The translations under genes and the position numbers were made by a program. Below, piece by piece: positions 1 through 11,424 of a stretch of 62,942 bases of DNA (its first letter is position 1; each line of letters opens with the position of its first letter). The DNA lies in assembly GCA_020845895.1 (NCBI GenBank), contig JADLEX010000122.1:1-62942 (forward strand). Direction: 5' to 3'. The notes below the pieces were generated by a model. The model was not told the DNA's origin, ran no database searches, and was given only the letters and a program-made list of their open reading frames with translations. The stretch is from Deltaproteobacteria bacterium. GTDB lineage: Bacteria > Lernaellota > Lernaellaia > JACKCT01.

Positions 1-1269
1 CTCGCGTATGTCGGCGCACTTGCCTTCGACGACCATCTTTTCAACATGGCGATCACGACGTTTGCCGTCGCACTGCTCGTCGCCTCACACGGAATGCGTC
101 GATGGCCGCTTGCGATGGCGGCGGGCGCGGCCTGCGGCATCACGTTCCGCTACGCCTTCGTGCCCTCGAACGGCCTGCTCGCGCTCGGCACGGCGCTCGG
201 CGCGTCGTCCGGTTTCGCACTTCAGACGCTCGCCGAGCATCAATGGCGACCTCTTCACGCGTGGCGGCGCGTCCGTTTGCGCTGGACGACGCCCGAGGCC
301 GTCGCGACGCGGCGGGGCGCGGTCGCGTGGCTCGCGGCACTTGGCGCGAGCGCGTTTGCCTTCACGCGCTACAACTTCGTCGATCTCCACTATTACACGT
401 CGGAAATCGAGCACGGACCGGCGGCGACGCTCTCCGACTGGTTCACGCAGATTCCGGCCTACGCCGCGATCCTCGTCGCGCATTTGCTCGGACCCGTAGT
501 GGCGCTCGCCGTCGCGCTCGGGTTTTGGCGGCTCTTTCGCGACCGCCACGATTCGCGCTGGGTGATGGCGGCATGGTTCGCCGTTCCGCTCGTCGTGCTC
601 TCGCTCGTCGTGAAGAAAAACGCGTACTACATTTATTATGCGGCGGTCGCGGCTGTTCCCGTGGCGGGTTACGGCCTCGCGCGGTTCGGAAACGGGCGCT
701 GGGCATCGGGAGCGCGCGCGGCGGTCGCGTTGCTGCTCGTCGCGTCGATCGGGCGTGCGTTACTGGCCGACGCGCCCCGGCCCGGCGAGGGGATCTGGGC
801 GAACGTGTTTCAGGAGGCGAGCGCGCACGTGCTGCAAAGCCCCAGATCATTCGATGCCCGCGAGTCGCACCTGCCCGTGCCGGGACTCGTGCGGGCGATG
901 CGCCGCGCTCACCCCGAACTTTCGCATCCCACGTTGCTCGTCCTGGGTTCGGCCGATCTGATGGAGCGGATGCGTTACGGGATCCTCGCCGAAGACCCGC
1001 GCGTGGCCGTGCGCAATCCGATGCTCACGCCCGAGCCGGTGGAACTCGCTTCGGTGGCCGCGATCATGACGCCGTGCGGACTCGGTGAACTCGGCAGTCT
1101 CGCGTCGGCGCTCGCGGCGCTTCCCCGCGAGAACGATCTGGCGTCCATCGATGAAACGCGCGGCGCGGCTTATCGCGCGATGGTCGACGGGCTGCGCCCT
1201 TTCGCCGACCGATTCGCACCGTTCGCCCGCTCGGGCTACGGGTGTTTTCATGTCCGAACGCCCGACTGA
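1..1269 (+). CDS. GT-C-like membrane glycosyltransferase, array copy 1 (5' truncated)
   Basis: The frame is open from base 1, so the gene begins outside the window; an internal ATG at 46 is not the start, because the family motif FDDHLFN lies upstream of it (residues 9-15 of the visible part). The visible 422 residues hold several hydrophobic segments, an Arg-Tyr-Ala-Phe-x-x-Ser-Asn-Gly motif near residue 50, a Tyr-Tyr-x-x-Glu loop, and a KKNAYY motif near 205 directly after a hydrophobic stretch. The last one resembles the Lys-x-x-Tyr-Tyr motif of ArnT/PMT-type GT-C enzymes, which move sugars from lipid carriers across the membrane. A soluble C-terminal part carries MERMRY, the copy's version of the family's ELRYFL motif. 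It overlaps the next gene by 20 bases. Substrate and acceptor are unknown; the GT-C assignment is inferred from motifs and topology. Confidence 0.72.
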   Translation, partial: LAYVGALAFDDHLFNMAITTFAVALLVASHGMRRWPLAMAAGAACGITFRYAFVPSNGLLALGTALGASSGFALQTLAEHQWRPLHAWRRVRLRWTTPEAVATRRGAVAWLAALGASAFAFTRYNFVDLHYYTSEIEHGPAATLSDWFTQIPAYAAILVAHLLGPVVALAVALGFWRLFRDRHDSRWVMAAWFAVPLVVLSLVVKKNAYYIYYAAVAAVPVAGYGLARFGNGRWASGARAAVALLLVASIGRALLADAPRPGEGIWANVFQEASAHVLQSPRSFDARESHLPVPGLVRAMRRAHPELSHPTLLVLGSADLMERMRYGILAEDPRVAVRNPMLTPEPVELASVAAIMTPCGLGELGSLASALAALPRENDLASIDETRGAAYRAMVDGLRPFADRFAPFARSGYGCFHVRTPD

Positions 1270-2938
1270 GCCCGCCGGCGAATCGCGTCGCGCCCACATG
1301 ATCGCGGCGGCGGTCACGATCGCGTCCATCTTCGTCGCAGCCGGGGGCGTGACGTGGTGGAACGCGCAAACGCAGCCCGTCTTCGCCGCGCGCCCGCACT
1401 CGGTGCTCGGTTTCGTCGCGCAAAACGCGACGTGGCCCGACTACGCCACGCAGCAACACGCGCCGCGCAACGCGCCCATCATGCGCGCAGCCGCGCGTGG
1501 CGCTCGCGCGTTCGGCGGTTCGTATGCGGCGCAGATGCTGCCGCAGACCGCGCTGCTCGCGGTCCTCATCGCCGTTTGCGCATGGATCGCGGCCCGCGTC
1601 GCAGGGCCATTTGCGGCAGGCCTCGCCGCGATCGTCTGCGCCGTCACGCCCGCCAATCTGCTCGCCGCGCTCGCGTTCGACGACCAGCTCTTCAACATGA
1701 CGGCGACGGCGATCGTCGTCGCGCTCCTCGTCGAGGCGACGCGCACCGGTCGCGCGTGGATCGCACTGGTCGCCGGCGGCATCGGCGCGATCGTGTGGCG
1801 ATTCGCGTTCGTGCCGTCGAACGGCGTGCTCGCGCTGGGGTGCGTCGCGTGCGCGTGCACGGGGATGTTCGCGGATCTCGCGGTCGCGCGGCGCGCGGGC
1901 GCGGCGTCGGCTTCGACGAAGGCGCGGCTGGCGCGTCCGTGGGTCGTCGCGATGGCCGCGTTTGTCGCCGCGCTCGCGGGCGGGATCGCGCTCGGCGAAT
2001 TCGCGCGCGAATTGCCGCTCGACTACTACTCGCGCGAAGCGATCAACGTGCCCGCCGCGGCGAGCGGAGCGGCGGATACGGCGCGGGGTCTTGCGCTCTA
2101 CGCCGCGCGGATGTGGCGCACCGATCTCGGCCCCGTGCTTTGCGCGGCGCTCGTGCTCGGCGCGATCGGTCTCGCGCGCTCCGGATCGCCGCACCGATTC
2201 GGATTGCTGGCATGGCTCGTCGTGCCGCTGGTCGTGCTCTCCGCGATTCCAAAAAAGAATGCGTACTACATTCTACCCGCGCTGGCGGCGGTCCCGATCG
2301 TCATCGGCGCGGGAATCGCGGCCTGGCCACGTGTGCTTCGCATCCTCGCGGGTGCGGCGTGCGTGCTGGGCGCGGGCGCGCTTTCCGTCGCGTGGTTCAC
2401 GGGACTCGTCGCGAACGAGCCGCTTTCGGGCGAGTGGACGCGGCACTTTCAGGAAGCGCCGAATTTTTCGCCCGGGCCGCCGCAGATCGGCGCCGCTCCC
2501 GAGGCGAAGACGGCGCGCGCGCTGGTGGACGACATCCGCCGCGCTCGGCCCGACGACTGCCCGCGCCTCGTGATCGTCGCGCCCGGCAATCAGACGCGGC
2601 ATTTCATGAACGCACTCACCTGGTTCGTGCTCGATGCCGATCCGCGCATCGCGCTCGCGGAGATCGGGCACGTGCGCCGCGTGCCGTTCGAGGACGGCGC
2701 GCCGCTCCTCGTCGCCTTCGGTCGCGACGAGATGACGGTTCCGCCGATCGGGGAATTGAACGAGTACGCGCTCGATCAGTCGCGCGGCGAATCGCCCTTC
2801 GGACGCAGCGGCGCGGCGCAGTATCTGACGGGGGTGCTTTCGTCCGGCGCGCCGCGCGAGGTCGCGCGAACGGAGCGCTACACGCTGTGGTCGCTCGGCG
2901 CGGCGGCAGTCGCGACCTGCCCGAGCGTGGTTCCGTGA
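1250..2938 (+). CDS. GT-C-like membrane glycosyltransferase, array copy 2
   Basis: A 562-residue polytopic protein paralogous to its neighbours. The ATG at 1250 lies inside the end of copy 1 and gives the family's usual N-terminus: a membrane segment followed by WNAQTQPVFAARPH from residue 37. The second motif reads FDDQLFN (residue 143), so the His found in the other copies is Gln. The WRFAFVPSNG motif and a DYYSREA loop follow, then PKKNAYY at about 334-340 after a hydrophobic segment. The C-terminal third is soluble, probably periplasmic. The family role is taken to be sugar transfer from a polyprenyl donor, by resemblance to ArnT/PMT enzymes; this is inference. The Gln substitution may change activity if the motif is catalytic. 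Confidence 0.74.
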   Translation: MSERPTEPAGESRRAHMIAAAVTIASIFVAAGGVTWWNAQTQPVFAARPHSVLGFVAQNATWPDYATQQHAPRNAPIMRAAARGARAFGGSYAAQMLPQTALLAVLIAVCAWIAARVAGPFAAGLAAIVCAVTPANLLAALAFDDQLFNMTATAIVVALLVEATRTGRAWIALVAGGIGAIVWRFAFVPSNGVLALGCVACACTGMFADLAVARRAGAASASTKARLARPWVVAMAAFVAALAGGIALGEFARELPLDYYSREAINVPAAASGAADTARGLALYAARMWRTDLGPVLCAALVLGAIGLARSGSPHRFGLLAWLVVPLVVLSAIPKKNAYYILPALAAVPIVIGAGIAAWPRVLRILAGAACVLGAGALSVAWFTGLVANEPLSGEWTRHFQEAPNFSPGPPQIGAAPEAKTARALVDDIRRARPDDCPRLVIVAPGNQTRHFMNALTWFVLDADPRIALAEIGHVRRVPFEDGAPLLVAFGRDEMTVPPIGELNEYALDQSRGESPFGRSGAAQYLTGVLSSGAPREVARTERYTLWSLGAAAVATCPSVVP

Positions 2939-2991
2939 CGCACGCACACGATCCCTTGCGTGCGGCGCGAAACGATCGGCAAGATGCCGCC

Positions 2992-4653
2992 ATGAATTTC
3001 CACGGCGCAAACGCACCCCGGCCCGAGCCGAGGCGCGCCCTCGCGGCGCTCGCCGTAGTGTTCTTTGCCGCGGGTTGCGCGGCATCGGTCGCGGTGTGGA
3101 ACGCGCGCACGCAGCCGGTCTTCGCGCACCGCCCGCACCCCGTCACGGCGCAGGCGGTGATGTTTGCGAATCCCGGCGCGGACGACGACCTGCTCGCGGC
3201 GATTCCCGCCGCGTGCCCGCTTTTCGTGATCAGCAAACTCGCGCTCGCGGGGAGCGAGGTGACGTATCCCCGCGTCGCGGCGGGTCAACCGGTGCTGCTG
3301 GCGTTGCTCGTGATCGTGCTCGCGGGAGTCGCGTGGCGCATCGGCGGTGCGCGCGCGGCGGTCGCGGCGGCGGCGATCGCGGCGGCGACACCCGTCGTCT
3401 TTCTCGCGGCCATCGGATTCGACGACCACCTCACGCTCATGTTGGCGGCGGCGACCGGGCTGCTCTTCCTCGCGGGTGACCGCCCCTTCGCGCGACTCTG
3501 GCCCGCCATCGGCGCGGGGTTCGCGATCTGCGCGGCGCTGCGTTTTGCGTTCGTATCCAGCAGCGGACTCGTCGCCGCGTCGGTCGTCGGCGCGTGCGCG
3601 GGAGCGCGATTCGTTCACGAGGTGTTTGCAACGCCGTCGGCACGGCGTGGGGCGACGCTGACGCACGCGGTCGTCGGCGTTGCCCTCATGGCGGCGGTCG
3701 TCTTCGTGGTCGCGCGTCGCGACGGCGGATTCGCGTATCTCGCGCCGTCGTATCTCGGCGCCGAAGCCGGGCACGCGCCGCCGGGGCTCGCACGCAACCT
3801 GCTCGCCTATCCGTACTTGATGGGGCGATACCACCTGGGACCGATCGTCACCGCACTCGCTCTGGTAGGCATGTGGCGGGCTGTGGATCTGTGGCGGGCT
3901 GCGCGCGAGCGCGACGCCCGGGCGATCGCCGTGGCCGTCGCATGTCTCGCGCCGCTCGCGGTGCTCGTCGCGATCCCGAAGAAAAACCCCTACTACCTCT
4001 TCGCGCTGCTCACCGCGGCGCCGGTGCTGGGCGGATTCGCGTGGTCGCGGATGGCGAATTCGCTCGCGCGCACGGTCGCAGGCGTCTTCATCGCCCTCGG
4101 CATCGGGCTCGTGCAATGGGGTCTGTGGCGCGGCGATCCCGAGGCGCGACCCGCGCCGGGATTCGAGGACTACATCCACGAGCCCTCGTCGTTCGCGCTG
4201 CATCGACCCGACGACCGCGAACACCCGGACCGCGCCGAGGCGCTGCGCATCACCGAGGCGTTCGCCGCGATCGGCGTGAAGCCACCGGCGACGATCCTCG
4301 TCCCCGGCAGCGTCGCCGTGTTCGACGAGCTTCGATATTTCCTGCTTGCCGTCGATCCGCGCTGGCGCCTTTACGTGGCGCTGCCCGCGGCGAGCCCGCC
4401 GATGCGCGAACCCGTCGCCGTTCTGCGCGAGGCGGGTGAGCGCGCCGACGCCCCGGTCGGCGATGCGATCGAAGCCACCGCGCGGATGATCGAGGAAGAC
4501 GAACGCGTCGGCACGGACCACGGCGGCCGACCCGCGTTTCTTCGGCGGCTCGCGCATGACGTTCCCGAATGGCGGCGCATCCACCGCTCGGAGCGGTACG
4601 TCGTGGATGTGCCCGAGTTCGTGGCGGCAGCGGCCGCGACGGCGGGACCATGA
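2992..4653 (+). CDS. GT-C-like membrane glycosyltransferase, array copy 3
   Basis: A 553-residue paralogue. The ATG at 2992 follows a 53-base gap, the only real gap in the array, so it could carry its own translation signal. Family motifs in order: WNARTQPVFAHRPHP at 36, GFDDH at about 142-146 (continuing LTLM instead of LFNM), RFAFVSSSG, a SYLGAEAG loop, and PKKNPYY at 329-335. The C-terminal soluble region contains FDELRYFLLAVD. The stop overlaps the start of copy 4 as ATGA, which points to translational coupling. The N-terminal segment contains a Gly-Cys-Ala sequence, but it lies within the hydrophobic core and is probably a membrane helix, not a lipobox. Exact substrate unknown. Confidence 0.74.
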   Translation: MNFHGANAPRPEPRRALAALAVVFFAAGCAASVAVWNARTQPVFAHRPHPVTAQAVMFANPGADDDLLAAIPAACPLFVISKLALAGSEVTYPRVAAGQPVLLALLVIVLAGVAWRIGGARAAVAAAAIAAATPVVFLAAIGFDDHLTLMLAAATGLLFLAGDRPFARLWPAIGAGFAICAALRFAFVSSSGLVAASVVGACAGARFVHEVFATPSARRGATLTHAVVGVALMAAVVFVVARRDGGFAYLAPSYLGAEAGHAPPGLARNLLAYPYLMGRYHLGPIVTALALVGMWRAVDLWRAARERDARAIAVAVACLAPLAVLVAIPKKNPYYLFALLTAAPVLGGFAWSRMANSLARTVAGVFIALGIGLVQWGLWRGDPEARPAPGFEDYIHEPSSFALHRPDDREHPDRAEALRITEAFAAIGVKPPATILVPGSVAVFDELRYFLLAVDPRWRLYVALPAASPPMREPVAVLREAGERADAPVGDAIEATARMIEEDERVGTDHGGRPAFLRRLAHDVPEWRRIHRSERYVVDVPEFVAAAAATAGP

Positions 4654-6329
4654 CGGCGACGACGTCGTCCCCGGAATCCGGCGTGCGCAGCAAGCGCATC
4701 GCGACGTTCGCCGCACTGGCCGTCTTTGTGCTCGCGCTCGCGGCGGCGCTTGCGTGGATCGAGCGCTGGAACGCGTGGACGAATCCGATCTTCGCCGCGC
4801 GCCCGCACCCCGCGCTGCCGCACGCGTTGCTGCACCATCACATGCAGCCCGAGTCCGATCTGCTCTACGCGCTCCCCTGGGAGTCGCCGCTCTTCGCCGT
4901 CACCGACGCGGTGATCGATCGCTTCGGCCGCACGTATTCGGCGATCATGCGTGCGCAATATCTGTTCTACGCGCTCGCCGCGCTCGGTCTCGCCGCGGCG
5001 GCCTGGGCGCGTGCCGGTGCGCGCATGGGCGCGTTCGCGGGGCTGCTCGCGCTCGCCGCGCCGGTGCCGATCGCCGCCGCGCTCGGCATGGACGACCACG
5101 CCCTCATCCTTGCATTGGCGGCCTGGAGCCTGTGCGCGATGGTCGTCTCCGAACGGATGACACGACCCGCTCCCGCCCTCGTCGCCGGTCTGCTCGCCGG
5201 GCTCGCGATGCGCTGGGCATTTGTGCCGAGCAGCGGTTTGCTCGCGGTCGCGACGATCGCCTGCGCGGCGGGGTGCGACGCGCTCGCCGGTGCGGTGGAT
5301 CGCTACGGAGGCGTGCGCGCGTGGTGGCGGATGCGAAGGCGGCCCGAGGCGTGGCGAGCGGTCATCGGCCTCGGCGCGATGATGGCGGCATTCGCCGTCG
5401 CCGCGTGGTGGCGCTCGCCCAACCCCCCGCTGCAACTCGGTTACTACTCCGCCGAGGCGGGCGAATCGGCCGCCTTCGGCGCGGGTGCGTGGCTTGCCGG
5501 CGTCCCCGCGTACGCGCTGCTCGCCGCGCGGTTCCAGCTCGGCCCCGTGCTCGCGGCCACGACGTGCGTCGCGCTGGTCGTGCTGTGGCGAACGCGCCAC
5601 GACGACCGCGCGCTCGTGACGGGGTGGATCCTCGTGCCGATCCTCGCGCTCTCGCTCGTTCCCAAGCGAAACGCGTACTACGGCTGGTGCGCGCTCCTGG
5701 CCGCGCCGTTCGCGATTTCGCTGCTGGTCGCGACGATCGAAAAAACATGGGCGCGGGTCGGTCTCGCGGTGGCAATCGCCCTTGGCGCGATGTCATGGTC
5801 CGTCGCGCGGATGCTCGCGCCCGAGCCGAACGTGCCCGGATCGGCGACATTCCGCCACTTCGAACAAAGCTCCATGTACGTGCTCACGCGGCCCGACTTC
5901 ACCATCGAGGGCGCGCGCGCCCCCGAGCGCGCCATGCTCGATGCGCTGCGCGAACGCCTCGGCGCGGACGAGCGCGTGCTCGTCGTGCTCCTCGGCACGC
6001 AGGAGCCTTTCGAGCAACTGCGCTATCATCTGCTGATGCGGGATGCCGACGCGCAGCTCCACATCCTCGCGCTTGCGGGGCGCAATCCACCGGACGACGC
6101 GCGGCCGTTTTTCGCCGAGGTCGCGCCGTCGCGCGGCGTTGCGCGGCCCTTCGCGGATGTCGTGAGTGACGCGATGGAGCGCCTGCGTCGCCAGTTCGGT
6201 TCCGAAACGCCGATCTCGCACCCGACGATGGGGTACCTGCAACGGCTGGCGGAGCACGCGGGCGAGGTTGAACCGGCGTACATCGGCGAGCGAATCGTGG
6301 TGTACGACCGGGCCGGGGGCGCGCCGTGA
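4650..6329 (+). CDS. GT-C-like membrane glycosyltransferase, array copy 4
   Basis: A 559-residue paralogue whose ATG at 4650 overlaps the preceding TGA (ATGA). The N-terminal motif is WNAWTNPIFAARPHPAL from residue 40. The second motif is degenerate: MDDHALIL at 147, keeping Asp-Asp-His but losing Leu-Phe-Asn. RWAFVPSSGLLA, GYYSAEAG and PKRNAYY (338-344, Arg in place of the second Lys) follow. The C-terminal domain has FEQLRYHLLMRD. Many hydrophobic segments alternate with Arg-rich loops, as in GT-C transferases. The most divergent of the visible copies in the Asp-Asp-His motif. Function by family resemblance only. Confidence 0.73.
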   Translation: MTATTSSPESGVRSKRIATFAALAVFVLALAAALAWIERWNAWTNPIFAARPHPALPHALLHHHMQPESDLLYALPWESPLFAVTDAVIDRFGRTYSAIMRAQYLFYALAALGLAAAAWARAGARMGAFAGLLALAAPVPIAAALGMDDHALILALAAWSLCAMVVSERMTRPAPALVAGLLAGLAMRWAFVPSSGLLAVATIACAAGCDALAGAVDRYGGVRAWWRMRRRPEAWRAVIGLGAMMAAFAVAAWWRSPNPPLQLGYYSAEAGESAAFGAGAWLAGVPAYALLAARFQLGPVLAATTCVALVVLWRTRHDDRALVTGWILVPILALSLVPKRNAYYGWCALLAAPFAISLLVATIEKTWARVGLAVAIALGAMSWSVARMLAPEPNVPGSATFRHFEQSSMYVLTRPDFTIEGARAPERAMLDALRERLGADERVLVVLLGTQEPFEQLRYHLLMRDADAQLHILALAGRNPPDDARPFFAEVAPSRGVARPFADVVSDAMERLRRQFGSETPISHPTMGYLQRLAEHAGEVEPAYIGERIVVYDRAGGAP

Positions 6330-7996
6330 CGGACGAAACGCGGGAGCGCCCAATGCGCGAGGCGGCGCTATGCGCCGTCGCGGTTGCGGTCGTCATCGTC
6401 GTCGCGCTCGTGACGTACGACGCGTGGAATCGTCGCACGCAGCCGATCTTCGCCGTGCGTCCGCACCCCATGCTCCCCGCCGCCATGCAGGAATTCATCC
6501 GGCCCGGTTACGGCGAATATTCGGCGGTGGTGCCGCGCGACAAGGCGTTGCTCGTATGGACGTCGTTCGCCCTGCGGCATTTCGGCGGCGACTACGTCGC
6601 GCTCATGCGGGCGCAACTTGCGGTGCTTGCGCTGCTCATCGCCCTCGCGGCCGTCGCCGCGTGGCCGGGCGGCGGGGCCGCCGCCGCGATCGCCGCCGGA
6701 GCGTTCGTCGCGTTCGCACCGCTCACCGCCGAACTCACCCTCGCCTTCGACGATCACCTCTTCAATGCGGCGGGCGTCTTCGTCGCGCTCGCGCTGCTCG
6801 CGTGGTCCGACGGCGGCCGGCGCCGGCTGGTCATGCTGGCGGCGGGGCTCGCGGCCGGGGCGGTGCTGCGCGGCGCGTTCATCCCGTCGAACGGCCTGAT
6901 CGCGCTCGCGACGGTTGTCTTCGGCGCACTGGGTCTCGCGGCCGAGCACCTCGTGCGCGAACGAAAGTCCATCACTCACGTGGTCGCAACGCGCCACGCC
7001 GATTCGATGCGCGACCTCATCGCGCGACCCGCCCTCGGCGCGCTCGCGATGCCGGCGGGCTTCGCGCTCGTCGCCGCGTCGATCTGGGCGTCGGGCCGCA
7101 TTCAGCCGGGCTACTACGCGGGCGAATGGTCCCGCGCGTTTCTGCCCGACGAACTCATCCCGCACACGCCCGGCGCGGTCTGGGCGTATCCATGGCTCGT
7201 GTTCCACGAGCAACTCGGACCGGTCGGCACGGCGTTCGTGCTGACGGGGCTCGCAGCGGTCGTCGCGTTTCGCCCGCGCGGAATGGGCCTGTGGATCGGC
7301 GCGTCGCTTGTCCCGTTCGCGCTCGTCGTCGCCATCGCGAAGAAGAATCCGTACTACGACGTGTATGCCGTGCTCGCGATGTTGGGGCTGGGCGGGCTCG
7401 GCCTCGCGGCGATCCCCCGTCGCGCGGTGCGCGCGGTCCTGATCATCGTCTTCGTCCTCGCGGGCGCGGCGTTCACCGGGCACCGGCTCTTCACGGGGCG
7501 GACGATCGAGGGCACGCCGCTCGTGATGTATCACTTTCAGGAGCAACCGGGTTTCTGGCTGAACACGCCGCGCACCGAGCCCTGGCCCGAGGACGACGCG
7601 GCAACGCGCATCGCCGCCGCGATTCGCGAGATCCGGCCGGCCGGCGACGCGCTCGTCCTCGTCGTGGATGAGACCGTGGTCATCGAACGCGTCGAGCGTC
7701 TGCGGTATTTTCTCGCGACGCGCGATGCGCACCTCACGCTCCTCGTCACGCAGACCGCGCAGGCGCTCCCGTGGCGCGACCCCGCGCCGCTCGTGCTGCA
7801 CATCCGCGTCGGAGACGCCGACGCACCGACGCCGCGAGCGTTGCTCACGAAGGGCGCCGATTATCACCGCAATCCGCGCAGTGCGTTCGCCGACGCGGGC
7901 GGGCTCGCGTATCTCGACGATCTCGCACTCCGGGCCGACGTGATGACGACGCTCGACGAAGGGGACTTCTGGGTACTGTACGGATTCGCGCCATGA
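6326..7996 (+). CDS. GT-C-like membrane glycosyltransferase, array copy 5
   Basis: A 556-residue paralogue starting at a GTG that overlaps the previous stop (GTGA, 6326-6329). Motifs: WNRRTQPIFAVRPHPML at 34, AFDDHLFN at 140-147, RGAFIPSNGLIA, GYYAGEWS, and a KKNPYY motif at 339 that is preceded by Ala instead of Pro. The C-terminal soluble part contains RLRYFLATRD. The coupling by overlap to both neighbours suggests the proteins are made together in similar amounts. Activity as a polyprenyl-sugar-dependent glycosyltransferase is inferred. Confidence 0.74.
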   Translation: MTDETRERPMREAALCAVAVAVVIVVALVTYDAWNRRTQPIFAVRPHPMLPAAMQEFIRPGYGEYSAVVPRDKALLVWTSFALRHFGGDYVALMRAQLAVLALLIALAAVAAWPGGGAAAAIAAGAFVAFAPLTAELTLAFDDHLFNAAGVFVALALLAWSDGGRRRLVMLAAGLAAGAVLRGAFIPSNGLIALATVVFGALGLAAEHLVRERKSITHVVATRHADSMRDLIARPALGALAMPAGFALVAASIWASGRIQPGYYAGEWSRAFLPDELIPHTPGAVWAYPWLVFHEQLGPVGTAFVLTGLAAVVAFRPRGMGLWIGASLVPFALVVAIAKKNPYYDVYAVLAMLGLGGLGLAAIPRRAVRAVLIIVFVLAGAAFTGHRLFTGRTIEGTPLVMYHFQEQPGFWLNTPRTEPWPEDDAATRIAAAIREIRPAGDALVLVVDETVVIERVERLRYFLATRDAHLTLLVTQTAQALPWRDPAPLVLHIRVGDADAPTPRALLTKGADYHRNPRSAFADAGGLAYLDDLALRADVMTTLDEGDFWVLYGFAP

Positions 7997-9696
7997 CGGA
8001 AGCGCGCGCGGATCGCACGCCCGCCTCCGGCCCGCCGATGTGGGCCGTGCTCGTCATCGTCGCGGCCATCGTCGCCGCCGCCGCCCTGTTCGCATCCTGG
8101 TGGAACGCGGCTACGCAACCCGTGTTCGCGGCGCGCGCGCACCCCGTTCTGCACCGCGCGCTGCTGCACGAAAATTCGGCCGCGCCTTACGAGCTGTCGA
8201 GCATGGTGCCGGACAATCGCCCACCGGTCCTGGAACTCGCGCGCGTCATGACGTCGCGATTCGGACGCTCGTACCGCGCGATCATGGCCGCGCAAACGAC
8301 GTGGCTGGCGCTGTGGATCATGCTCGCCGCCGCGCTCGGTTTCGTGCTCGCCGGGCGCGGGGCGGCGATCGTCGCGTCGGCGCTCGCGGCGGCGACGCCG
8401 ATGGCCTGGGTGTGCGCGCTGGGCTTCGACGATCACCTCTTCAACCTCGTGCTCACCATGGCCGCCGTGCTCGCGCTCGCGCTTTCCGATCGGCTGACAC
8501 GCCCCGTCGCGGCGCTCGCCGCCGGAGCGCTCGCCGGCCTCGCGATCCGTTACGCGTTCATCGCGTCGAACGGGATTCTGACGGCGGGCGCGGTGCTGTG
8601 CGCGGCGGGCGGATTGGTCGCGGAGGATCTCGCCGCGCGTCGCCGCCATCTCGCGGCGAGCCTGCGCGGAGGCGTCGGACGAATTCCCCGCGAACTCCGG
8701 CCGCAACTCGTGGGCACGGCGTTCCTGCTGGTCGGCCTCGTCGCGGGGCTGTGGCGCGCGGATCTCGCGTCGCAGGCGGCATTCGGCTACTACGCGGGCG
8801 AGGTCGGCAACTCACCCGCGCGCGGCGCGCTCGACTGGCTCATCGCCCTGCCGATCTATCTCGACATCAGCGCGCGGCATCTGCTCGGCCCCGCGATGTT
8901 CATCGCGACCGTCGTCGGTCTCGTCGCGCTCGTGCGATCCGCCGCGCCGGGGCGCGGGCTGCTCGTGGCGTGGTTCGCCGTGCCGGTTGTCGCGCTCTCA
9001 GTCTTTCCAAAGAAGAATCCGTATTACATCTACGCCGCGCTCGCCGCCGCACCGGTCATCGTCGCGGCGGTGCTCGCGCGCGTTCGGCCCGATGCCCGTC
9101 GGCGCGTCGTCACCGCGGTAGTGATCGCCGCGTGCTCCGCGTGGACGGCGTGGCATGCGACGCGCGGCGGCGATGCCGAAATGCCGAAACTCTTTGCGGC
9201 GTACACCTTTGAGCAGGGCGCATACGTGCTTCGCGCGCCGGTCACGAAACCGAGCCTGGAGCGGGCCGAGGCGGATGCGATCCATTCCGCCGCGCGGGCG
9301 CGCCGTGCGCCGGGCGATGCGCTGCTCTTCATCGTGCCCGGCGCGGTGGGGCCGATGGAGGAGCTTCGCTACTTTTTGCAGGAGCACGACGCGGCGGCGC
9401 GCGTGTTCGCCATCGCCCTCGCCGAGATCACGCCGCCGACGGACGTGTCGCCGTTCCTGCTCGTGCCGCGCGGCGCGTGGGACGCGGCGGGCGAGCGCGG
9501 CGCGGCGGGCGTGATCGACGACTCGGTCGCGTACGTCCTGCGCAAGGTGGAGAAGACGCACGACGCGATGGGGCAGATCGAGACCGCGGGGGATCCCGTC
9601 GCGCGGGCCGAGTATCTGCGCGCGCTCGCGGGCGCAGCTTGGGCGGTCGTGTACGAGTCGGATCGCTACGTGCTGCTCGATGGAGGCGTTTCGTGA
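7993..9696 (+). CDS. GT-C-like membrane glycosyltransferase, array copy 6
   Basis: A 567-residue paralogue; ATG at 7993 overlaps the previous TGA. It carries the full motif set: WNAATQPVFAARAHPVL at 38, ELSSMVPDN in the first long loop, GFDDHLFN at 144-151, RYAFIASNG, GYYAGEVGNS, and PKKNPYYIYAALAAAPV at 339 onwards. The last string, sitting after a hydrophobic AWFAVPVVALSV, closely resembles the conserved region of PMT_2/ArnT GT-C enzymes. The C-terminal part has MEELRYFLQEHD. Copies 6 and 7 share the ELSSMVPDN loop and the GEVGN motif and look most alike, which suggests a recent duplication. Confidence 0.76.
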   Translation: MTEARADRTPASGPPMWAVLVIVAAIVAAAALFASWWNAATQPVFAARAHPVLHRALLHENSAAPYELSSMVPDNRPPVLELARVMTSRFGRSYRAIMAAQTTWLALWIMLAAALGFVLAGRGAAIVASALAAATPMAWVCALGFDDHLFNLVLTMAAVLALALSDRLTRPVAALAAGALAGLAIRYAFIASNGILTAGAVLCAAGGLVAEDLAARRRHLAASLRGGVGRIPRELRPQLVGTAFLLVGLVAGLWRADLASQAAFGYYAGEVGNSPARGALDWLIALPIYLDISARHLLGPAMFIATVVGLVALVRSAAPGRGLLVAWFAVPVVALSVFPKKNPYYIYAALAAAPVIVAAVLARVRPDARRRVVTAVVIAACSAWTAWHATRGGDAEMPKLFAAYTFEQGAYVLRAPVTKPSLERAEADAIHSAARARRAPGDALLFIVPGAVGPMEELRYFLQEHDAAARVFAIALAEITPPTDVSPFLLVPRGAWDAAGERGAAGVIDDSVAYVLRKVEKTHDAMGQIETAGDPVARAEYLRALAGAAWAVVYESDRYVLLDGGVS

Positions 9697-11336
9697 CCGC
9701 GCCGCTCTCCCGACGTAAGCGCGAACGCGTATTTGCGTGGCTCGGCGCGGCGCTCGCGCTCGCGGCGGCGATTGCGGCGATGCACGCGTTCAATTTGCGC
9801 ACGCAGCCGGTTTTTGCGCAGCGCGCGCATCCCATCCTGCATCAGGCGGCGCTCCACGCGCATCCCGAAATCCCGCGCGAGCTTTCGAGCATGGTGCCGG
9901 ACAACGAGCCGCCGCTCTTTCGCCTCTCGAACCTCACGTCCGCGTGGCTCGGCGACAACTACGCCGCGTATATGGCGGCGCAGCTCGTTCTCTTCGCCGC
10001 GTTCGTCGGCGCGTGCGCGGCGATCGGATTTCGCGTGCGCGGCCGTCGCGGCGCGGCGTGGACGGCCGCATTCGCCGCGTGGCTGCCGGCGGCGCACTTC
10101 GCGGCGCTCGGCTACGACGACCACCTGTTCAACATGACGCTCACAGCCCTCGCCGTCGCGTGCGTGATCGGTGCGCGGGGAGCGCGGCTCGTCGCGGGTG
10201 CGTTTCTCGCGGGCGCGTTCGCGGGGATCGCCCTGCGTTACGCTTTCATCGGCTCCAACGGTCTGCTGGTCGCGGCGGCAGTGGCGAGCGCGATCGTCGG
10301 CGCTGCGGTCGATGCGTTCGGCACGCAGGACGCGGCGCCCGAACCCCGCGCGCGCACGCTGGCATTCGGCACGGGAGCGCTTGCGGTGTTCGGCATCGCG
10401 GCGGCGATCTTCGCGGCGCGCGGCGGATCGCTCGAATACCTGAGTCCCGGCTATTACGGCGGCGAGGTCGGCAACGCACCCTTCTCGGGATTCGTCCCGT
10501 GGCTGCGGTCGCTCGCCGCGTATCCGCTGTTGCTCATGCGCTTTCACTGGGGGGTGCCGCTCACGGCGTGTGTGCTCGTGGCTCTGTGGACGCACTTCGA
10601 GCGACGGCTGCCGGGTCGATTCGCGCTCGCGGCATGGCTCCTGATGGAAATCGTCGCGCTCTCGGCGATTCCCAAAAAGCATCAGTGGTACATCGACTAC
10701 GCGCTCATCGCCGCCGCGCCCATCGCGGGAGTCGCGTCGGCGTATTGGCGGGAATTGGGACGCGAGTCGCGCGCCGGGCGCGTCGCCGTGCCCACGCTGC
10801 TGGCGGCTTGCGTGGCGTGGGCGGCGTGGGGGCTTGCGCGGCCGAGCCCCGCGTGGATGCAGGCCGCGTTCATGGACATCGTGATGGACGAGCGGGGTCG
10901 ATCTCTGATGATGCCGATCACCGTGACGAGCGATGCGGCGGACGAGGCGGGTGCGCTTTCGGCGCTCACGCGCTCGCGACGCGGAGCCGACGAGCCGCGC
11001 GTGCTGGTCGTGCTCGACTGGGTCGGCCCGCTGGAGGAATTCCGCTACGAGTTCGCGCTGCGCGACCGTGCGCTGCGACTCTACGTCGTCGGCGCGGCCG
11101 TCTTGCCGCCGCCCTCCGGAAAGCCGTTTCTCGTGTATCCGCGCCGCCACGGCGAAGACGCGCCGCCGCCGCTGCCGGAACTCGTCGAGCGCACCATAGG
11201 CTACGTCGAGGCGCGTATCGCCGAGGGCGCGGCGCCCGTCGATCGTCTACCGCACCTGTACGACCTGCGTGCGAGGGCCGGCGAGTTCCGCGTCGTCCAC
11301 GAGGGACCCGACCTCGTCGTGTACGACACGCCGTGA
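9693..11336 (+). CDS. GT-C-like membrane glycosyltransferase, array copy 7 (last)
   Basis: A 547-residue paralogue and the last gene of the array; its GTG at 9693 overlaps the preceding stop. Motifs: FNLRTQPVFAQRAHPIL at 33 (Phe replaces the usual Trp), ELSSMVPDN, YDDHLFN at 141, RYAFIGSNGLL, GYYGGEVGNA, and PKKHQWYIDYALIAAAP at 327, where the usual KKNxYY is KKHQWY. The C-terminal domain has LEEFRYEFALRD. No terminator for the plus strand is obvious downstream; the hairpins there point the other way. GT-C membership is inferred as for the other copies. Confidence 0.74.
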   Translation: MTAPLSRRKRERVFAWLGAALALAAAIAAMHAFNLRTQPVFAQRAHPILHQAALHAHPEIPRELSSMVPDNEPPLFRLSNLTSAWLGDNYAAYMAAQLVLFAAFVGACAAIGFRVRGRRGAAWTAAFAAWLPAAHFAALGYDDHLFNMTLTALAVACVIGARGARLVAGAFLAGAFAGIALRYAFIGSNGLLVAAAVASAIVGAAVDAFGTQDAAPEPRARTLAFGTGALAVFGIAAAIFAARGGSLEYLSPGYYGGEVGNAPFSGFVPWLRSLAAYPLLLMRFHWGVPLTACVLVALWTHFERRLPGRFALAAWLLMEIVALSAIPKKHQWYIDYALIAAAPIAGVASAYWRELGRESRAGRVAVPTLLAACVAWAAWGLARPSPAWMQAAFMDIVMDERGRSLMMPITVTSDAADEAGALSALTRSRRGADEPRVLVVLDWVGPLEEFRYEFALRDRALRLYVVGAAVLPPPSGKPFLVYPRRHGEDAPPPLPELVERTIGYVEARIAEGAAPVDRLPHLYDLRARAGEFRVVHEGPDLVVYDTP

Positions 11337-11343
11337 CCGCTCC

Positions 11344-11378
11344 GCACGAGAAAAAACGCCCGACGCGTTGCCGTCGGG
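11344..11378 (-). terminator. Rho-independent terminator, distal duplicate copy
   Basis: On the minus strand a GC-rich hairpin (CCCGACG / CGTCGGG arms) is followed by six T. It is the second copy of a 36-base unit repeated at a 44-base period (11343-11378 and 11387-11422) and serves as a back-up stop for the Crp/Fnr gene transcript. Confidence 0.75.
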
Positions 11379-11387
11379 ACGACAGAC

Positions 11388-11424
11388 GCACGAGAAAAAA
11401 CGCCCGACGCGTTGCCGTCGGGCG
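11388..11424 (-). terminator. Rho-independent terminator, proximal copy
   Basis: Perfect 9-bp stem (11401-11409 with 11416-11424, 6-base loop) followed on the minus strand by TTTTTT. It lies about 95 bases past the stop of the Crp/Fnr-type regulator gene and is the first of two near-identical terminators. Confidence 0.82.

Follow-up and report, generated by a model that had tools for sequence, protein, structure and literature searches.

We found that the first 11,336 nucleotides of the window, by which we mean the whole stretch of DNA analysed (62,942 nt, the entire contig C122 of a 5.0 Mb genome in 171 contigs), are occupied by seven same-strand open reading frames of one family, all of them intact and encoding proteins of 547-567 aa. 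The best overall explanation, which we hold to be probable, is that the seven are co-translated polyprenyl-phosphate-sugar transferases of the periplasm that make up a repertoire of diversified specificities; that the copies form such a repertoire and not one assembly line or one complex is a judgement we consider about evenly balanced. The kind of enzyme is known, and it is the run of seven together with an altered external loop EL1 that is unusual.

An initial annotation of this DNA had described seven neighbouring same-strand paralogues of about 550 residues, which was confirmed. When copy 6 was used as a query against its own genome, the other six were recovered at 34-39% identity (E 5e-75 to 4.5e-35), and in alignments of the seven the pairwise identity is about 28-37%. 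Most of the junctions are indeed four-base stop/start overlaps, as had been claimed: ATGA/GTGA overlaps are certain at g3/g4, g4/g5, g5/g6 and g6/g7 (positions 4650, 6326, 7993 and 9693), a GTGA overlap is possible at 2935 for the g2/g3 junction if the GTG start of g3 is used, and g1 and g2 overlap by 20 nt. The best reading of this junction layout is that the array would be expressed as one translation-coupled operon. The genes and the element that follows them are:

g1, 5' part: contig C27 (L009:2-547, minus strand), linked through an exact 127-nt contig overlap
g1: 1..1269, plus strand, GT-C-like membrane protein, 422 of 562 aa (3' part); joined by contig overlap in a continuous frame
g2: 1250..2938, plus strand, GT-C-like membrane protein, 562 aa; NCBIfam ArnT match below threshold (E=0.003)
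g3: 2935..4653, plus strand, GT-C-like membrane protein; start at GTG 2935 or ATG 2992 (553 aa)
g4: 4650..6329, plus strand, GT-C-like membrane protein, 559 aa; gave the usable structure model
g5: 6326..7996, plus strand, GT-C-like membrane protein, 556 aa
g6: 7993..9696, plus strand, GT-C-like membrane protein, 567 aa; ArnT heads the PDB matches of a poor model
g7: 9693..11336, plus strand, GT-C-like membrane protein, 547 aa; paired with g6 in the tree (95/89)
Doubled hairpin: 11343..11422, minus strand, two exact 36-nt copies, 44 nt apart; T6 follows on the minus-strand reading

The window begins with 127 bases that are identical to the end of the C27 reverse complement, and the open frame of g1 runs across them; from this contig-end overlap we infer that C27 and C122 join. 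The initial annotation had seen the first copy cut by the window edge and had expected a longer array. The cut copy is completed on C27, but no further close copy was found beyond it, and the gene directly upstream of g1, on the same strand, is one that we take to be ftsY. Farther upstream on C27 are presumably rimM and ffh, all three names being given by sequence recognition without a family search. Because C27 completes g1 and a whole-genome search finds no further close array copy in the same genome, the array has seven members. A distant family member, which matches PMT_2, is found elsewhere in the genome (C20:6995-8494). We considered conserved synteny with ftsY and rejected it, as no family member is present in the 2.4-9 kb of sequence read downstream of ftsY in each of six relatives. 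On the other side, the downstream neighbours of the array include a Crp/Fnr-type regulator, a sigma-70 family factor, DksA and an M50 peptidase. The doubled hairpin separates the array from the convergent crp/fnr-type gene, and positions 11343-11422 resemble a doubled terminator-like element that may end transcription. The GC content of window positions 1-11336 is 70.9%, versus 65.8% in the remaining window, a difference that may come simply from membrane proteins rich in Ala.

Pfam and NCBIfam scans of the seven proteins returned nothing above cut-off, only sub-threshold matches, and for ArnT (NF009784) the best score, 16.2 bits, is below the curated equivalog cut-off of 567. PF13231 (PMT_2) matches no array copy at E up to 10, the copies are absent from the 33 PF13231 matches of their own genome, and the seven show neither a match to Emb-type Pfam domains nor the corresponding architecture of >1,100 residues (547-567 aa). 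PDB sequence-profile searches (A1, A2, A3 and a canonical GT-C of the same genome) gave no relevant chain. The GT-C-like character proposed in the initial annotation is nevertheless upheld by a fold search with g4 and by profile comparison to PMT_2-type proteins. The AlphaFold model of g4, for which the alignment consisted of the other six copies, has a pLDDT of 76 and a pTM of 0.78 and is composed of a long helix bundle and a C-terminal alpha/beta domain. In a Foldseek search of the PDB its first 22 matches all have the GT-C fold (probability 0.69-1.00), among them STT3/OST (6ezn, 7oci), AglB (3wak), ALG12 (9s6t) and ArnT (5ezm/5f15), as well as EmbA/B/C, AftB, ALG9, PimE and PIGU. The TM-scores reach moderate values (0.42-0.49 with ArnT, ALG and OST structures), which may be expected of a model built from only seven sequences. 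A fold search with copy 6, the query that the initial annotation had suggested, also places ArnT on top (5ezm/5f15, probability 1.00), although this first-made model is poor (pLDDT 57) and the support correspondingly weak.

Profile comparison with hhalign links the seven to divergent relatives in the class with a probability of 99.7 (E 2.4e-26), and one divergent relative in the class matches PF13231 (E 3.3e-14). Against canonical PMT_2 proteins of these genomes, the seven align at E 7.6e-6 and the wider family at E 1.5e-8. Since the fold search and this transitive homology agree, the GT-C reading is supported, and the array proteins are predicted with near certainty to have the GT-C fold. They are also very likely to be active glycosyltransferases, as suggested by their fold and residues.

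The initial annotation had listed six motifs shared by the copies; common motifs are real, but they are looser than stated. FDDHLFN reads FDDQLFN in g2, FDDHLTL in g3, MDDHALI in g4 and YDDHLFN in g7, and ELRYFL is intact in g3 and g6, becomes RLRYFL in g5 and takes the forms MRYGIL, LTWFVL, QLRYHL and EFRYEF in the others. In the numbering of copy 4 (g4), used for all residue positions here, the residues invariant in 7/7 copies include R51, H53, D148, D149, R188, S194, G196, Y265, E269, K339 and Y344. Invariant positions cluster in external loops, with R51 and H53 in EL1 and D148 and D149 in EL2. Mean column identity is 0.69 in the EL2 FDDH, 0.60 in RxAFxxSxG and 0.49 in KKNxYY, whereas the membrane stretches have 0.21-0.34 and the C-terminal domain has 0.23. 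That 7/7 copies are intact at ~30% identity suggests purifying selection.

Among characterised enzymes, ArnT contacts the sugar through D158 and the phosphate through K85, and an R-x-x-Y motif, to which Y345 of ArnT belongs, is located at the phosphate (PMC7801869). By hhalign, the EL2 Asp of the array pairs with the canonical HD motif, close to the position of the sugar-contacting D158 of ArnT, and the K[KR]xxYY of the array resembles the R-x-x-Y phosphate contact. The array proteins have both the EL2 acid and the basic/Tyr motif ahead of a late membrane helix that characterise GT-C_A enzymes. An EL1 Asp has been proposed to act as catalytic base in PimE and, from its position, also in ALG6, ArnT and PglB (PMC12041525). 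At the canonical EL1 DE site (e.g. PDEAYY), where GT-C_A enzymes usually have their catalytic base, all seven copies hold R-[PA]-H in MAFFT and hhalign alignments, with the register uncertain by ~3 residues; this counts against the glycosyltransferase reading. The swap in 7/7 copies would fit a GT-C fold reused for other lipid-phosphate chemistry or for a non-catalytic role, and the matches of g4 include PIGU, a GT-C-fold subunit of the GPI transamidase (PMC12041525). We consider such reuse improbable, given that the pocket loop residues are the most conserved part of the proteins and that the EL2 Asp and K[KR]xxYY are retained. Furthermore, another EL1 acid, in [DE][LY]-x4-P, is common to 7/7 copies and was paired to the DE motif in one hhalign run; it could replace the EL1 DE, the catalytic acid having been either lost or moved. 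We also entertain, as a tentative proposal, that these proteins constitute a new GT-C subfamily in which the EL1 Asp/Glu has given way to the His of R-[PA]-H, with repeated expansion into long tandem operons that would serve as a repertoire for surface-glycan diversification. Just as speculative is the accompanying suggestion that the His swap would reflect a changed catalytic mechanism, or a phosphate-type acceptor without need of a base.

The phylogeny places the seven array copies in one clade (ultrafast bootstrap 99, SH-aLRT 97), with g6 and g7 as sisters (95/89). This supports the local duplication raised in the initial annotation, and the copies, which look old and are deeply diverged, appear to have arisen by tandem duplication within the lineage. 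Since the copies are ~28-37% identical, whereas a canonical PMT_2 pair from this genome and G001 is 49% identical, either the duplications would be ancient or evolution of these genes would be rapid. Recent amplification was rejected on the same ~28-37% identity and because no long stretch of the array recurs near-exactly from copy to copy.

A sister genus of the same class carries a cluster of eight family members (G001:C35:7106-22301, L041/L042), of which seven form their own clade (100/99) and the eighth, on the minus strand, falls outside. Because the seven of the window and the seven of C35 form distinct clades, the two long clusters have separate origins. Between the first and second copies of the C35 cluster there is an unrelated gene of ~1.3-1.5 kb with a lipoprotein-like start, and a ninth copy was looked for in the gap of this cluster and not found. 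Clusters of two or three family members are present in G001, G003 and G004. In L043 (G002:C24), at 5469-6969, a family member is apparently split across two frames, possibly through a frameshift or an assembly error. Outside the class, a search of 290 genomes gave no more than weak or partial matches, and with the ~290 genomes searched the proposed subfamily has so far been clearly seen in class FEN-1099 alone. The GTDB phylum FEN-1099, in which the genome of the window is placed by way of relative G006 of the same class, corresponds to Ca. Lernaellota, alias Podoxiota (PMC13248872, PMC11382960). PMT_2 (PF13231) matches amount to 33 in the present genome and 36-76 in six relatives (~5-Mb genomes), many of them in pairs or triplets. 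As the class is GT-C rich, tandem GT-C sets are less surprising here than in most bacteria. The earlier description of the run as unusual is accordingly tempered by these 33-76 matches per genome and by the cluster of eight in the sister genus, but it stands for the length of the run, seven and eight being the longest seen.

Neither a donor synthase nor a flippase nor any other glycan gene could be recognised in or near the array, no arn genes were recognised near it, and no GtrA-type flippase was found anywhere in the genome. Donor synthases could be among the 37 GT2 genes of this genome that score above the Pfam cut-off, and, as no GtrA-type flippase was found, an exporter of another type would be needed. 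The lack of other glycan genes in or beside the array argues against an assembly line in which the seven enzymes would act successively on one glycan, adding one defined sugar each, like the GT-C arabinosyltransferases of the mycobacterial wall. Copy number also varies in relatives (7 here; 2, 3 and 8 elsewhere), which is odd for a fixed pathway. A single operon with coupled translation speaks for such a pathway, the deep divergence of the copies fits different linkages, and multiple GT-Cs working on one polymer are known (PMC11127046); on balance we regard successive action as rather unlikely. Coupled translation would likewise favour a fixed stoichiometry, in keeping with neighbouring copies forming, like EmbA and EmbB as currently viewed, mixed dimers or larger complexes, in which some members would be structural. 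The embC-embA-embB genes are co-localised GT-C paralogues, and EmbA/EmbB is a predicted heterodimer (PMC2885622). By this analogy a complex is conceivable, but we find it doubtful, as the same candidate catalytic residues occur in 7/7 copies and no copy looks like a dead structural subunit.

In the repertoire that we prefer, the array would be an operon of seven paralogous glycosyltransferases of GT-C_A type (ArnT/OST/ALG-like). Each protein would lie in the inner membrane with its small C-terminal alpha/beta domain presumably facing the periplasm, would, at the periplasmic face, accept the sugar of a polyprenyl-phosphate carrier and would pass it to a cell-envelope acceptor, be it a polysaccharide, a lipid or a protein, with the donor synthases encoded away from the array. 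Bacteria are known to modify envelope glycans in this way, with a donor synthase, a flippase and a GT-C enzyme that uses the lipid-linked donor (PMC11127046). Following the old tandem duplication, the loop residues of the likely catalytic pocket would have been kept, and changes would have accumulated in the C-terminal domain and across much of the membrane region. With the pocket retained and the rest altered, a repertoire of differing donor/acceptor specificities appears most probable, and a varied cell-surface sugar coat is probably its product. Seven co-encoded GT-C enzymes of the same family would be a natural experiment in how specificity changes on the GT-C fold, and, with the EL1 acid apparently missing from its usual place, these paralogues offer a direct test of the catalytic-base question for GT-C enzymes. 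For Ca. Lernaellota, an uncultured phylum, the 33-76 PMT_2 matches per genome indicate a heavy investment in what appears to be lipid-linked extracytoplasmic glycosylation.

When compared with known systems, the array proteins resemble ArnT (5ezm/5f15; NF009784) in their length of ~550 aa, in combining a GT-C_A membrane part with a small C-terminal domain, in their full-length Foldseek match, and in the EL2 Asp and late-loop Tyr. They differ from it in having only ~13% identity in the structural alignment, in lacking the EL1 DE at its canonical place and in the lack of recognised arn genes nearby. With GT-C proteins of the PMT_2/glycosyltransferase 39 type (PF13231) they have a common core by hhalign, whereas they are undetected by PF13231, their EL1 DE is replaced and they carry DD for the canonical EL2 HD. 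The only precedent for a tandem GT-C array that we found in the literature is mycobacterial embCAB, which likewise consists of adjacent GT-C paralogues, possibly in one operon (PMC2885622). However, embCAB comprises three genes for proteins of >1,100 residues with large C-terminal domains, belongs to another sequence family and has a known lipid-linked arabinose donor, whereas the array is made of seven genes for proteins of ~560 aa. The C35 cluster of the sister genus is of the same family, lies mostly on one strand, encodes proteins of ~545 aa and has the R-P-H motif too. Unlike the array, that cluster is a separate expansion that is not beside ftsY, has one copy on the opposite strand and carries an extra acid, mostly as W[DE], a few residues past R-P-H.
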